Source: Caulobacteraceae bacterium
GTDB taxonomy: Bacteria; Pseudomonadota; Alphaproteobacteria; Caulobacterales; Caulobacteraceae
DNA length: 44,127 nucleotides
Direction: 5' to 3'
Assembly: GCA_947475845.1 (NCBI GenBank)
Contig: CANJMO010000015.1
Span: forward strand, 1 to 44,127
This document shows positions 6,775 through 36,971 of the stretch, piece by piece (positions within the stretch are counted from its first letter, which is position 1; each line of letters begins with the position of its first letter). A program made the translations under genes and the position numbers. The notes under the pieces are model-generated. The model made no database searches and had not been told where the DNA came from. It saw nothing but the letters and a program-made list of their open reading frames with translations.

Positions 6775-8580
<1,806 letters not shown>

Positions 8581-9372
8581 ATGGCCCAGCCGCCGCTCCG
8601 CGGCCTCTCCCGCTCGCGGGAGAGGGGGACCGCGAAGCGGTGGAGAGGGCATGCCGCGCTTACAGCGCTGGCCGCCGCCCTTCTCGCCTGCGCCTGCTCG
8701 CCCGCCAAACCCGACAAGGCCGCCGACGCCGCGCCACTGTCGCGCGACATGGACGCCGTCTTCCAGCTCGCCTTCGGCTCCCTCGCCCCCTCCCCGCGCG
8801 AGATCGAGCGCAAGGGCAAGAAGGTCGACATCGAATACTCCCCGTCCCACATTCAGGATCTCGGCGACGGCCGCATCGCCCTGATCTCCACCGGCGTCTC
8901 GCCCGACGGCTGCAGCCCTTGCGCCCGCGCCGTGGCCATCACCTACCTCGCGCGCACGGGTGCGAGCTACCGCGTCACCAACCAGTGGCTCGACCTCGGC
9001 GCCATCGGCAACCTCGGCGAGAAGCCCGACGCGCGCTTCCGCGAGGACCTGTTCGAAAAGCCCGCGCTCGACATCGAGATGCCGAACGAGAACCAGGGCT
9101 GCAACGAGGTCACCGGCACGCTCTACGAGCTTCTGCCCACCGGCCCCGCCCTGCGCGCCGCGGGCATCAGCACCCACCGTTCCAACGTCGCCATGGGCGG
9201 CATCCGCGTCGGTCTACAGGTCGACGACTACGGCGACATCCTGGCCGATCAGAAGGGCAAGCGCTTCATCGTGCGCTATCGCGGCACCTATCCGGGCGAG
9301 GTCCCTTACGCGCCGGGCGGCGCGGACGGCCTGTGGCTGCCGCAGAACGGGTTCAAGATTCCGGTGTGCTGA
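8581..9372 (+). CDS. Putative lipoprotein with repeat-derived N-terminus
   Basis: A 263-residue protein I do not recognise. The start ATG follows the lepA stop without a gap, so it is probably translationally coupled. Residues 8-25 are encoded by a dispersed palindromic repeat (see 8604-8656), which supplies the basic n-region of the signal peptide (RSRERGTAKRWRGH). A hydrophobic stretch and lipobox LLAC at C37 follow, so the mature protein should be lipid-anchored in the envelope. The mature part has cysteines in CSPCAR, GCNEVTG and at the very C-terminus (PVC), suggesting disulfides. No other start codon lies between the repeat and the hydrophobic segment, so the repeat must be translated if the gene is functional. 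Function unknown. Confidence 0.7.
   Translation: MAQPPLRGLSRSRERGTAKRWRGHAALTALAAALLACACSPAKPDKAADAAPLSRDMDAVFQLAFGSLAPSPREIERKGKKVDIEYSPSHIQDLGDGRIALISTGVSPDGCSPCARAVAITYLARTGASYRVTNQWLDLGAIGNLGEKPDARFREDLFEKPALDIEMPNENQGCNEVTGTLYELLPTGPALRAAGISTHRSNVAMGGIRVGLQVDDYGDILADQKGKRFIVRYRGTYPGEVPYAPGGADGLWLPQNGFKIPVC
8604..8656 (+). repeat. Two-hairpin dispersed repeat, copy 1
   Basis: 53 bp made of a 9-bp hairpin (CTCTCCCGC-TC-GCGGGAGAG), GGGACC-type linker sequence, a second hairpin (ACCGC-GAA-GCGGT), then GGAGAGGGCATGCC. It is nearly identical to the inverse strand of 35645-35697, differing at two bases that pair with each other. It is translated as part of the lipoprotein gene here. Confidence 0.9.
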
Positions 9373-32691: not shown

Positions 32692-34023
32692 ATGAGGCGT
32701 AAGGTCGTCATTTCGACAGCGGGATCGTTGGGGGACCTCAATCCCTTCATCGCCCTGGCGCTTGACTTGAAGGCGCGCGGCTACGATCCCCTGATCGCCA
32801 GCCAACAGGAATTCCGCGCCAAGATCGAGGCCGAGCAGATCGCCTTCCACCCCCTGCGCCCCGGCGTCGAGGACGTGAAGCGCGAGCTGGGCATCGACGA
32901 ACAGACCATCTTCCGCAAGGCCACCAACGGCTCGTCAGGCCTGCCGTTCGTGGTGCGTCGGATCGCCATGCCGTTCCTGCGCCGCGCCTATGAGGACATG
33001 ATGTCGGCGACGCAAGGCGCGTCCCTGGTGGTGACCCACCCGTCCGCCTTCGCCGCCCGCCTGGCCGCCGAGAACCGCGGCCTTTTGTGGATGTCGGCGG
33101 TGCTGGCCCCGTTCGGCCTGATGTCCAACGACGACCCGCCGGTGCTGTCGACCGCGCCTGGCCTCGCGTTCCTGCGCGAGATGACCAACGCCCGCTCCGA
33201 CGCCGCCCTGCTGGGCGTGGTCAAGAAGGTGCTGGATCCCTGGACCGCGCCGTTCCAGCAGCTGCGCCGCGAGCTCGGCCTTCCGCCGGTGATCAACCCG
33301 CTGTTCGAAGGGCAGTTCTCGCCCTACGCCACCCTGGCGCTCTATTCCAAATGGATGGGCGATCTGCAGCCTGACCACCCGGTCAACTGCGACATCACCG
33401 GCTTCGTGTTCTACGACCGCCCGCCGGGCGCGCCCAATGTGCTGCCCGACGACATGAAGGCGTTCCTGGCCGCCGGCCCGCCGCCGCTGGTGTTCACGCT
33501 GGGCACCGCCCTGGTCAACGATCCGGGTGACTTCTACGAGCGCAGTCTGAAGACCGCCCAGACGCTCGGCCGCCGCGCCGTGTTCCTCGGGCTGGACAAA
33601 GACTCGCCGGACAAGGCCGACCGCTTGCGCCGCTCGCTGCCGGACACCGTGTTCGCCGCCGGTTATGTGCCCCATTCCCTGGTGTTCCCCCACGCCGAAG
33701 CCATCGTTCACCACGGCGGGGTCGGCACCACCGCCCAGGCCCTGCGCGCCGGCAAGCCGCAGCTGATCACGCCCTTCGCCGGCGACCAGCCGGACAATGC
33801 CATGCGCATGTGCCGCCTGGGCGTGGCCCGCCAGCTGACGCCGGGCGCCTATACCCCGCGCCGCGCCGCCGCCGACCTGGCCGCCCTGACCAGCGATCCT
33901 GCGTTGACGAGGCGCGCGGCCGAGATCGGCCGCGACGTTGCCGCCGAACGCGGCGCCTCGGTCGCCGCCGACCTGATCGAGGCGATGCTGAACGCGCAAA
34001 GCCCGCGGCAGGGTTTGGCTTAG
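32692..34023 (+). CDS. GT1-family glycosyltransferase (UGT/sterol-glucosyltransferase type)
   Basis: A 443-residue GT-B enzyme of the UDP-glycosyltransferase type. The N-terminal domain opens with KVVISTAGSLGDLNPFIALA (acceptor side, G-x-x-G-D-x-x-P motif); the C-terminal nucleotide-sugar site includes FAAGYVPHSLVFPHAEAIVHHGGVGTTAQALRAG and PFAGDQPDNAM. Likely acceptors are lipophilic molecules such as hopanoids, carotenoids or natural products; none can be inferred from the neighbours. GAGGAGAGG precedes ATG 32692. Preceded by a 289-base gap and not part of an obvious operon. Confidence 0.85.
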   Translation: MRRKVVISTAGSLGDLNPFIALALDLKARGYDPLIASQQEFRAKIEAEQIAFHPLRPGVEDVKRELGIDEQTIFRKATNGSSGLPFVVRRIAMPFLRRAYEDMMSATQGASLVVTHPSAFAARLAAENRGLLWMSAVLAPFGLMSNDDPPVLSTAPGLAFLREMTNARSDAALLGVVKKVLDPWTAPFQQLRRELGLPPVINPLFEGQFSPYATLALYSKWMGDLQPDHPVNCDITGFVFYDRPPGAPNVLPDDMKAFLAAGPPPLVFTLGTALVNDPGDFYERSLKTAQTLGRRAVFLGLDKDSPDKADRLRRSLPDTVFAAGYVPHSLVFPHAEAIVHHGGVGTTAQALRAGKPQLITPFAGDQPDNAMRMCRLGVARQLTPGAYTPRRAAADLAALTSDPALTRRAAEIGRDVAAERGASVAADLIEAMLNAQSPRQGLA

Positions 34024-34026
34024 ACT

Positions 34027-34090
34027 CACCTCCCCCACCGAAGGTGGCGGGAGGGGGACCGCCCGCTGGAAAGCGGGGGGTGGAGGGGGC
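34027..34090 (+). repeat. Two-hairpin dispersed repeat, copy 2 (divergent subtype)
   Basis: It has the same architecture as copy 1: a first hairpin (CCACC-GAA-GGTGG flanked by CCTCCC/GGGAGG), GGGACC, a second hairpin (CCGCT-GGAA-AGCGG), then GGTGGAGGGGGCAAGCC. Its tail is continuous with CCGCCAA at 34096-34102. Confidence 0.8.
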
Positions 34091-34150
34091 AAGCCCCGCC
34101 AATATCGTTAGCCGGAATCCAGATCGGGTGTTGTTGGCGGCGTGCGCCGG

Positions 34151-34254
34151 CCTTCCCCCTCCACCGCTGGCTCTTCGCTCCGCTCGGCCAGCGGTCCGTC
34201 CGGATCAATCGCATGCGATTGACCGAACCCCGACGCTTCGCGGGGGAGGTGACG
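34151..34254 (-). repeat. Two-hairpin dispersed repeat, copy 3 (long form)
   Basis: Read on the minus strand it starts CACCTCCCCCGCGAAG and ends CAGCGGTGGAGGGGGAAGG like copy 2, with an enlarged second hairpin (CGCTGGC/GCCAGCG) and an internal perfect 18-bp palindrome, TCAATCGCATGCGATTGA, at 34205-34222. Copies 2 and 3 face each other, with CCGCCAA (34096-34102) and TTGGCGG (34134-34140) between them. Confidence 0.75.
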
Positions 34255-35644: not shown

Positions 35645-35697
35645 CGGCATGCCCTCTCCACCACTTCGTGGTCCCCCTCTCCCGCGAGCGGGAGAGG
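35645..35697 (-). repeat. Two-hairpin dispersed repeat, copy 4
   Basis: 53 bp, identical to copy 1 in inverse orientation except for two bases: the second hairpin is ACCAC-GAA-GTGGT instead of ACCGC-GAA-GCGGT, a compensatory pair change. It is intergenic, 12 bases downstream of the methyltransferase stop. Confidence 0.9.
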
Positions 35698-35708
35698 TCG
35701 CACTTCTG

Positions 35709-36971
35709 CTATCTTCTGAAGACTGCTGCGAGTTCGACGTGGGGGGACCAGAGGAACTGGTCGACGACCATGACGGTGTGCAGCTTGAGGCCGCCGTCGA
35801 CCAGGATGCGGGCGTCGCGGGCGAAGGTGGCGGGGTCGCAGGAGATGGCGACGACGGTTTCGACCTTTGACGCGGCGATCTGTTTGGACTGCAGGTCGGC
35901 GCCGGCTCTCGGCGGGTCGAACAGAACGGCGTCGATCTTCTTGAAGTCCTGGGTCAGGACCGGGCGGCGGAACAGGTCGCGGGCTTCGCCGGTGATGCTC
36001 TTGAGGCCGGGGGCCGAGGCGGTGGCGGCCAGCAGGGCCTTGATGGCAAGGGCGTCCGAGTCGACAGCATAGACCGGGGCGATGGAGGCCAGGCGGAAGG
36101 TGAAGGCCCCGGAGCCGCAGAACAGGTCGGCGATGCGCCTGGCCCCGTGCAGGTTGCGCACGGCGAAGTCGGCCATGGCGGCCTCGGCTTCGGGCACGGC
36201 CTGGAGGAAGCCGCCGGCCGGCAGGGCGACGGAGGCCGGGCCGAGGCGGACCATGGGCTGGCGGGCCATGAAGATCATCTCCCCCGCCATGGTGACGCGG
36301 GCGAAGTCGGATTCAATGGCGATGCGGGCGGCGCGGACGCGGGCGTCGGCGCTGAGGCCGCCGCTCTTGGCCTCGACCCCGGTGACGTCGATGTCCAGCC
36401 CGGTGTCGGTGAGGGTGATGTGCAGGGTCGGCGCCGACTTGGGATGCTCCAGGAACGGGACGGCCAGGCGGCGCAGAGCCGGCAGGGCGGCGACCAGGCG
36501 CGGATCGGCGATGGGACAGACCTCGATATCCACTAGCGACCAGGAGCGGCGCTCCTTGTAGCCGAGGCGGACCGGGCCCTTGTCGCCTTTGCGGGCGTGC
36601 AGGGCGAGGCGGCGGCGCGAGCCGGGGGGCGCGGCGTAGGGGCTGGTGAACTCGGCCTCAAGCTTCTCGCGGCCGAGGGCCTCGACCACCTTCTCCTGCT
36701 TCCAGGCGAGGTAGGGGGCGTGGTCCCAGTGCTGCAAAGCGCAACCGCCGCAGACGCCGAAGTGTGGACAGGGCGGGGTCACGCGGTCGTCGCTGGGGGC
36801 GATGACGTCGATCAGTTCGCCGCGCTCGCCGTGGGCCTGGGCGCGGATGGCCTCGCCGGGCAGGGTGTAGGGCACGAACAGGCTATCGCCGTCGACGGTG
36901 CGGCAGACGCCGTCCCCCTGGCCGCCGACGCGCAGCACCGATGCGTCGATCGGACCTTCAAGCTTAGCCAT
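35709..36971 (-). CDS. TrmA/RlmD-type RNA (uracil-C5) methyltransferase
   Basis: A 420-residue SAM-dependent RNA m5U methyltransferase. An N-terminal TRAM-like domain (residues 6-60) precedes an iron-sulfur cluster motif with C68, C74, C77 (CPHFGVCGGC) and C152. The Rossmann domain has IADLFCGSGAFTFRLA (SAM), DAVLFDPPRAG, and the catalytic nucleophile in AISCDPATFARD. These fit the RumA/RlmC/RlmD group acting on 23S rRNA; the exact position modified cannot be told. TlyA, another rRNA methyltransferase, is encoded 4 kb away. Confidence 0.92.
   Translation of the reverse strand: MAKLEGPIDASVLRVGGQGDGVCRTVDGDSLFVPYTLPGEAIRAQAHGERGELIDVIAPSDDRVTPPCPHFGVCGGCALQHWDHAPYLAWKQEKVVEALGREKLEAEFTSPYAAPPGSRRRLALHARKGDKGPVRLGYKERRSWSLVDIEVCPIADPRLVAALPALRRLAVPFLEHPKSAPTLHITLTDTGLDIDVTGVEAKSGGLSADARVRAARIAIESDFARVTMAGEMIFMARQPMVRLGPASVALPAGGFLQAVPEAEAAMADFAVRNLHGARRIADLFCGSGAFTFRLASIAPVYAVDSDALAIKALLAATASAPGLKSITGEARDLFRRPVLTQDFKKIDAVLFDPPRAGADLQSKQIAASKVETVVAISCDPATFARDARILVDGGLKLHTVMVVDQFLWSPHVELAAVFRR

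Follow-up and report, generated by a model that had tools for sequence, protein, structure and literature searches.

Two nearly identical two-hairpin repeats lie in opposite orientation in the DNA analysed here, a stretch of 44,127 nucleotides (the window) that is the entire contig C15 of a Caulobacteraceae genome of 2.65 Mb in 101 contigs. A preliminary description of the window compared them to REP/BIME-type elements, whose usual partner would be a REP-associated tyrosine transposase (RAYT). We therefore asked what this repeat is, and what could have spread it. The evidence below indicates that it is probably one arm of a mobile-element family, the coding member of which consists of an arm, a DUF559 nuclease gene and an inverted arm. 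Our best reading of the family is that of REPIN-like, non-autonomous arms of DUF559-encoding elements.

Copies of the repeat in the window and its genome

The two copies, 8604-8656 (+) and 35645-35697 (-), are 53 bp each and have two mismatches (G/A and C/T) that face each other in hairpin 2; on direct comparison of both copies, the preliminary description was right on this point. The full repeat unit is 57 bp (8600-8656 and 35645-35701), the added bases bringing one more difference, G/A at position 4. In a repeat search this pair was the longest inverted match of the window (57 nt, 95% complementary). We refer to these copies as type A, and to a second pair, which has another sequence with the same layout, as type B. 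The features of the window are as follows:

8600..8656, plus strand: type-A two-hairpin element, solitary, 88.5 bits; 19 nt past the lepA stop (lepA 6775-8580)
8604..8625, plus strand: hairpin 1 of the 8600 copy, arms 8604-8613 and 8616-8625
8629..8641, plus strand: hairpin 2 of the 8600 copy, arms 8629-8633 and 8637-8641, with a GAA loop and a C-G closing pair
8642..8650, plus strand: tail GGAGAGGGC of the 8600 copy, a second possible partner of CCTCTCC in hairpin 1 (DNA fold)
34025..34096, plus strand: type-B element, left arm of a '+ -' pair, 24.1 bits; 1 nt past the stop of the gene ending at 34023
34147..34252, minus strand: type-B element, right arm of the pair, limits by eye, with an extra palindrome CAATCGCATGCGATTG within hairpin 1
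35645..35701, minus strand: type-A element, solitary, 89.8 bits; 7 nt past the stop of the minus-strand gene 35709-36938 (PF05958)
35660..35672, minus strand: hairpin 2 of the 35645 copy, ACCAC GAA GTGGT, the compensatory counterpart of the 8600 copy

In both type-B arms (34025-34096 and its mate 34147-34252), hairpin 1 is followed by GGACC, hairpin 2 and GGTGGAGGGGG, as had been described for the divergent copies. The extra palindrome inside hairpin 1 occurs in two type-B copies, 34147-34252 and locus L021.

The repeat family extends beyond the window. A query with 8590-8670 found 14 places in the genome at E <= 2.9e-8, and a covariance model gave 23 matches at E <= 0.01, some of which are opposite-strand half-matches to the same copies. 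Chance as the origin of the repeat is ruled out by these further copies. The strong type-A copies are found mainly on contigs of 8-21 kb (11 of 14, with 3 on larger contigs; C51, C52, C67, C71, C74 and C81 are the contigs concerned), a clustering that may be an assembly effect or may reflect islands or co-binned DNA.

At gathering scores, no Rfam family matched the repeat in the window, where the terC RNA (RF03067; 9420-9473, plus strand, 60.2 bits) alone was found. This RNA lies 3' of ORF 8581-9372 (+), which has no Pfam match and starts directly after the lepA stop. The 8600 copy (57 nt, or 19 codons) is in frame near the start of this ORF. A stretch that looks lipoprotein-like by eye, ALTALAAALLACACS, follows its translation, as though the copy supplied a signal-peptide n-region.

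In related genomes, the type-A covariance model matched 270 of 299 from the family, in 19 of 22 genera, and 65 of 385 from the class; nine of the 29 element-free family genomes were counted so by inference. The best 18 candidates per family genome and the best 14 per class genome were scored, so that copy numbers from this survey are to be read as 'at least'. There are 14 copies in the genome of the window, 54 in genome G158 and 134 (model hits) in the complete genome G047.

DUF559 genes lie between inverted arms

Some '+ -' pairs, in which hairpin 1 points outward in both arms, are 368-405 nt apart. We inspected five wide '+ -' pairs – that on contig C67 of the genome of the window, one in G158 and three in G047 – and the interior of each encoded a DUF559-like protein, one of them frameshifted. 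The gene on C67 is the sole PF04480 match of its genome (3.1e-28) and is flanked by type-A arms at L010:1062-1118 (+, 89.2 bits) and 1487-1543 (-, 89.4 bits), so that this unit and the gene-free copies of the same genome have type-A arms in common. The coding unit of arm, DUF559 gene and inverted arm spans about 480-770 bp where measured. One of the three G047 units, L253 (G047:C1:1392500-1395500), is 1.6 kb wide and holds a second long ORF that by eye resembles an IS110-family transposase. At L286, L291, L295, L302, L304 and L307, the DUF559 frames have C-terminal run-ons, for example PSPLAGEG and PLPLPPGEG, which are probably read from the downstream arm.

The DUF559 protein is a predicted Vsr-like PD-(D/E)XK nuclease, as judged from its family match, residues and fold. 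In an alignment of 26 proteins including that of the window's genome, 14 positions do not vary, D51, E62, D64 and H68 included; these four we take to be catalytic-type from their role in Vsr. An AF2 model (pLDDT 90.7) retrieved 3hrl (E 5.9e-7), I-Bth0305I (3r3p; E 1.1e-4) and Vsr itself (1cw0; E 9e-3) in Foldseek, and profile matches were obtained to 3hrl (1.5e-37) and 3r3p (0.0022).

PF04480 is common, being found in 249 of 299 family genomes and 125 of 385 class genomes, with 11 matches in G047 alone. We scored the surroundings of these genes by the best inverted match between the 300-nt flanks, with cuts at 31 and, for strong matches, 40. This score measures inversion alone, the two-hairpin layout being judged by eye, and some hits are simple palindromes (e.g. 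L363 and L380). As controls, 1000 random places had their 99% point at 31 and a maximum of 38, and among 103 small genes one scored above 31 and none above 40. The top-ranked DUF559 loci of the family exceeded 31 in 23 of 25 cases and 40 in 19 (5 of 30 lacked full flanks and were dropped), and 20 hand-picked, lower-ranked family loci gave 19 and 17, respectively. The named relatives of the window genome's DUF559 gene, which include loci in Brevundimonas, Caulobacter, Phenylobacterium, Asticcacaulis, Sphingobium, Sphingomonas and Sphingopyxis, scored above 31 in 65 of 78 cases and above 40 in 59 (2 of 80 dropped for incomplete flanks); some of them are near-duplicates (L315/L316 and L343/L351) or share a contig (L327/L328). 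In the class, 17 of 26 loci were above 31 and 14 above 40 (4 of 30 dropped for incomplete flanks). A plasmid collection contributed 4 of 7 loci above 40, the three without inverted flanks being from Azospirillum (one) and Escherichia (two). Inverted flanks were also seen around DUF559 genes in metagenome-assembled genomes labelled Phycisphaerales, Phycisphaeraceae and Anaerolineales (L356, L357, L363 and L388), which points to either a broader distribution or mis-binning of the contigs.

The DUF559 genes tested are thus mostly enclosed by inverted repeats, usually two-hairpin arms with hairpin 1 outward. Loci whose flanks are weak or absent at the cut of 40 (6 of 25, 3 of 20, 19 of 78 and 12 of 26 in the first four sets above) count against the DUF559-element reading. 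At 54 named loci the type-A model hit on at least one side of the gene, and where it hit both sides the arms were '+ -' in 31 of 33 cases; this is also the arm orientation of gene-free pairs. In L305 and L306 the arms are reversed, by eye.

Element and gene also occur together across genomes. Both were found in 241 family genomes, the element alone in 29, the gene alone in 8 and neither in 21 (odds ratio 21.8), and the corresponding class counts were 52, 13, 73 and 247 (odds ratio 13.5), with p-values that are inflated by relatedness. The 73 of 125 DUF559-bearing class genomes in which the element was missing came from a search that covered type-A arms alone. Over 92 loci scoring above 40, arm similarity followed protein similarity (Mantel rho 0.42, reached in 0 of 999 permutations). 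Vertical descent would also produce both the co-occurrence and the Mantel signal.

Arms and gene as a probable unit

One clean empty site emerged from the plasmid collection. In Sinorhizobium sp. C101 (L424:1279-2046) a 768-bp insert comprises a DUF559 gene and flanking repeats, and Shinella sp. PSBB067 (L428) has 9 bp in its place, arms and gene being absent together. By eye, the insert lies past one ORF's stop codon and ahead of the following ORF's ATG, a position after a stop codon that matches the preference of the repeat copies described below. Its arms belong to a different sequence family from type A, and no target-site duplication was recognised by eye. L424/L428 is the only clean empty site in the collection, which yielded none for the type-A unit. 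In Sphingobium RAC03 (L420), the carboxylase genes on either side of a unit are direct neighbours in two relatives (Sphingobium plasmids), but rearranged sequence comes with the unit, a case of insertion plus rearrangement. In a Sphingomonas parapaucimobilis plasmid (L422, NZ_CP155755.1), a DUF559 unit lies between two transhydrogenase subunit genes of the same direction, and among the listed relatives, those covering the site align at 72-76% only.

The foremost alternative is that the palindrome pairs are older and independent, and that DUF559 genes land in them as some insertion sequences do in REPs, making the copies in the window targets of the gene and not its offspring. Arms without DUF559 far outnumber DUF559 genes (in G047, the model has 134 hits and PF04480 has 11), as this explanation would have it, and PF04480 is missing from 29 of the 270 element-bearing family genomes, including a congener of the window's genome (G025, 91% complete, 6 copies). 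The IS110-like ORF within the L253 unit likewise implies that the spacer between arms accepts insertions. Against it stand the joint absence of arms and gene at the clean empty site and the correlation of DUF559 type with arm type. In addition, the three DUF559 units that we inspected among the 11 matches of G047 carry an arm subtype other than the abundant one of its gene-free pairs; this also counts against the DUF559-element reading, no parent unit of those pairs being found among the three. We consider landing in pre-existing pairs unlikely.

Structure of the arm

An arm consists of hairpin 1, which is outermost (CCTCYCCC..GGGRGAGG), followed by GGGACC, hairpin 2 and a G-rich tail, GGTGGAGRGGGC. 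The 5' strand of hairpin 1 has this tail as an alternative partner; in DNA folding the 8600 copy adopts that pairing and the 35645 copy does not.

We counted covariation on 13 full type-A copies aligned from the window's genome. Pairing is kept in 97.4% of stem cells; both-side changes account for 8 cells, spread over 3 pairs, one-sided variation is seen in no pair, and 5 stem cells, on 5 pairs, are unpaired. The substitutions, then, mostly respect the pairing, as the two copies in the window had suggested. None of 500 shuffles reached the observed percentage paired, both-side cell count or covariation score, in a test that is inflated by the common descent of the copies, and structures slid along the alignment scored below the true one. 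The count of both-side-changed pairs (matched by 39 of 500 shuffles) and that of pair types (441 of 500) do not stand out. Such paired substitutions could stem from selection on the hairpin, or from arm-to-arm correction while the element is copied.

Hairpin 2 is clear in 120 distinct copies and has a three-base loop in 107. In 102 of these 107 the loop is GNA, closed by C-G in 99; its middle base changes (A, C or G) and the flanking G and A are constant. Random hairpins of the same loci have GNA loops in 12% of cases, with stems of at least 5 required there and of at least 4 in element copies, and the bias is partly owed to shared descent. GNA loops form exceptionally stable DNA mini-hairpins, a melting temperature of 78 C being given for GCGAAGC in the part of PMC4686876 consulted. 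This suggests a single-stranded DNA hairpin as the recognised form.

Position near genes and pairing of arms

We examined the position of copies against genes called by a simple codon-based script, without annotation, merging 189 observations into 165 sides. On 69 of 107 merged stop-facing sides the nearest copy had hairpin 1 facing the stop, and within 26 nt this orientation was seen 55 times vs 11. Of the start-facing sides, 16 of 58 had a copy within 26 nt. Copies thus prefer the first 26 nt past stop codons, with hairpin 1 leading. Restriction to copies above 40 bits gave the same direction (39 of 51 vs 10 of 38 within 26 nt), in a distance count that overlooks intervening partners and excludes the 20 of 126 copies that overlap a called gene.

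Such a bias would also be expected if the element acted as RNA, as a 3'-UTR hairpin that shields the ends of mRNAs, causes ribosome stalling or terminates transcription, with its dispersal reflecting use; the convergent genes at L115 and L116, each with its own copy, fit this idea as well. We nonetheless think it improbable. No T-run follows the hairpins (by eye), the prevailing GNA loop is a known DNA mini-hairpin motif, and the enclosure of a nuclease gene is left unexplained. An insertion bias combined with the loss of harmful insertions could, moreover, yield the same positions.

Pairs are of one orientation. In the complete genome G047 there are 42 pairs within 300 nt, of which 41 are '+ -', one is '+ +' and none is '- +', with gaps of 23-83 nt. 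G158 has 12 pairs within 300 nt (10 '+ -', two '+ +' from one tandem group, no '- +'), with gaps of 26-64 nt. Several apparently single copies that we inspected in G047 have a sub-threshold partner. The pairing plan is REPIN-like, and the REP/BIME-like character proposed for the repeat is well founded in this sense: the copies are dispersed, conserved in structure and arranged in inverted pairs.

A replication-strand bias was considered and rejected. Among the 'singles' of G047, 37 of 51 have one sense (p 0.0018), but several of them have low-scoring partners, and the bias is absent from G158, with 8 '+' and 5 '-' in the first half and 9 of each in the second.

A RAYT as mobiliser is not supported

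The preliminary description reported no RAYT in the window, and the absence extends to the whole genome: PF01797, the Y1 transposase family, had no match there at E <= 0.001, and the control, Caulobacter vibrioides, does match. In the family, PF01797 is found in 48 of 299 genomes and the element in 270. We fetched 30 PF01797 loci from relatives; the element scored no higher than 17.4 bits at any of them, short of a threshold of 20. In the inverted-flank test, 8 of 24 Y1 loci scored above 31 (6 of 30 without full flanks were dropped), as expected if some of them are true RAYTs. We therefore reject a RAYT as the mobiliser; the expected RAYT link found no support, and the gene found between the arms is DUF559. 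On present evidence, the repeat is no ordinary REP and not a RAYT product. That a past or donor Y1 transposase spread the element, with DUF559 as a passenger, is very improbable: all 48 PF01797 family genomes do carry the element (48 of 270 vs 0 of 29) and the REPIN-like pairs resemble RAYT-linked ones (PMC3116915, as far as consulted), but PF01797 is missing from 222 of the 270 element-bearing family genomes as well as from that of the window, and from the 30 loci the element is absent at the score given.

A proposed mechanism and its implications

In the reading we prefer, that of arms belonging to DUF559-encoding elements, we infer the nuclease to be the mover of the arms. The DUF559 protein, being Vsr/homing-endonuclease-like, would recognise the arms and cut DNA, and repair would copy the unit to new places, by analogy with RAYTs and REPINs. 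For a nuclease without strand-transfer chemistry, the route might be break-induced copying or single-strand repair, both of which are guesses. The short gene-free pairs and the solitary copies, those of the window included, would then be non-autonomous derivatives.

More broadly, and tentatively, these elements may form a separate class of transposase-less mobile DNA. A Vsr/DUF559 nuclease would read the two-hairpin arms – probably in single-stranded form, where GNA loops cap mini-hairpins – cut near gene ends, and spread its own gene and gene-free pairs by repair, giving tens to more than 100 repeats per genome in Caulobacteraceae and perhaps in Sphingomonadales; other RAYT-less orphan REP-like repeats might have arisen likewise. 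We hold this wider proposal to be possible, with somewhat less confidence than the assignment of the repeat itself.

Some REP-like repeats are without a known mobiliser, and through the DUF559 link one further RAYT-less group gains a specific candidate enzyme. The link makes the mobiliser question testable in a laboratory strain of Caulobacter, and a common family of nucleases, still named as a domain of unknown function, may be read as a selfish element.

Comparison with known systems

The closest parallel is with REPINs or BIMEs and their RAYTs, which are likewise short extragenic palindromes in inverted pairs with short spacers and compensatory changes, linked to a gene whose product cuts DNA. 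Bertels and Rainey found 93% of 430 REP doublets to be inverted (PMC3116915, in the part consulted), compared with 41 of 42 pairs in G047. The present arms differ in having two hairpins, a G-rich tail and no GTAG head, and the linked gene is DUF559 and not a Y1 transposase. Neither a GTAG nor a CGTC tag is present in the type-A consensus or, by eye, in the profile of 97 aligned flanks.

CGTC REPs are mostly alphaproteobacterial, with C. crescentus among the carriers, and in the portion of the source consulted they are described as not flanking tyrosine transposase genes and as unassociated with transposase genes (Di Nocera 2013, PMC3733652). The present arms share with them the mainly alphaproteobacterial distribution and the RAYT-less flanks. 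According to the same portion, CGTC REPs start with CGTC, TGTC or CCTC, close the base of the stem with A-T pairs and mostly carry a CCA tail (PMC3733652), whereas in the arms described here the stem base is G-C and there are two hairpins. The CIR elements of Caulobacter (Chen and Shapiro 2003) are, where the consulted part of PMC2229807 describes them, about 110 bp long with GANTC at a loop; like the present repeats they are intergenic, two-armed and found in Caulobacter relatives, but the GANTC of that description is missing from the type-A consensus. Identity with CGTC REPs, GTAG REPs or CIR elements was thus rejected on sequence features.

On the side of the enzyme, VsrA of C. crescentus (CCNA_02930) is also a DUF559 protein, SOS-inducible and required for the DNA-damage response once ScmA methylation is lost (PMC12907096, in the part consulted). 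It differs in having been studied as a mismatch-repair nuclease, and neither 'palindrom' nor 'hairpin' occurs in the main text of that article. Among the matches listed from the open-licence literature, there was no report of DUF559 or Vsr-like genes linked to palindromic repeats.

I-Bth0305I resides in a group I intron. Its fold is near that of the DUF559 model and, as the name of PDB entry 3r3p indicates, it is an earlier case of a Vsr-type nuclease housed in a mobile intron; the DUF559 gene described here differs in lying between hairpin arms. With MITEs and their insertion sequences, finally, the family has in common that its own coding unit and its gene-free copies share terminal inverted repeats, and that one clean empty site is available.
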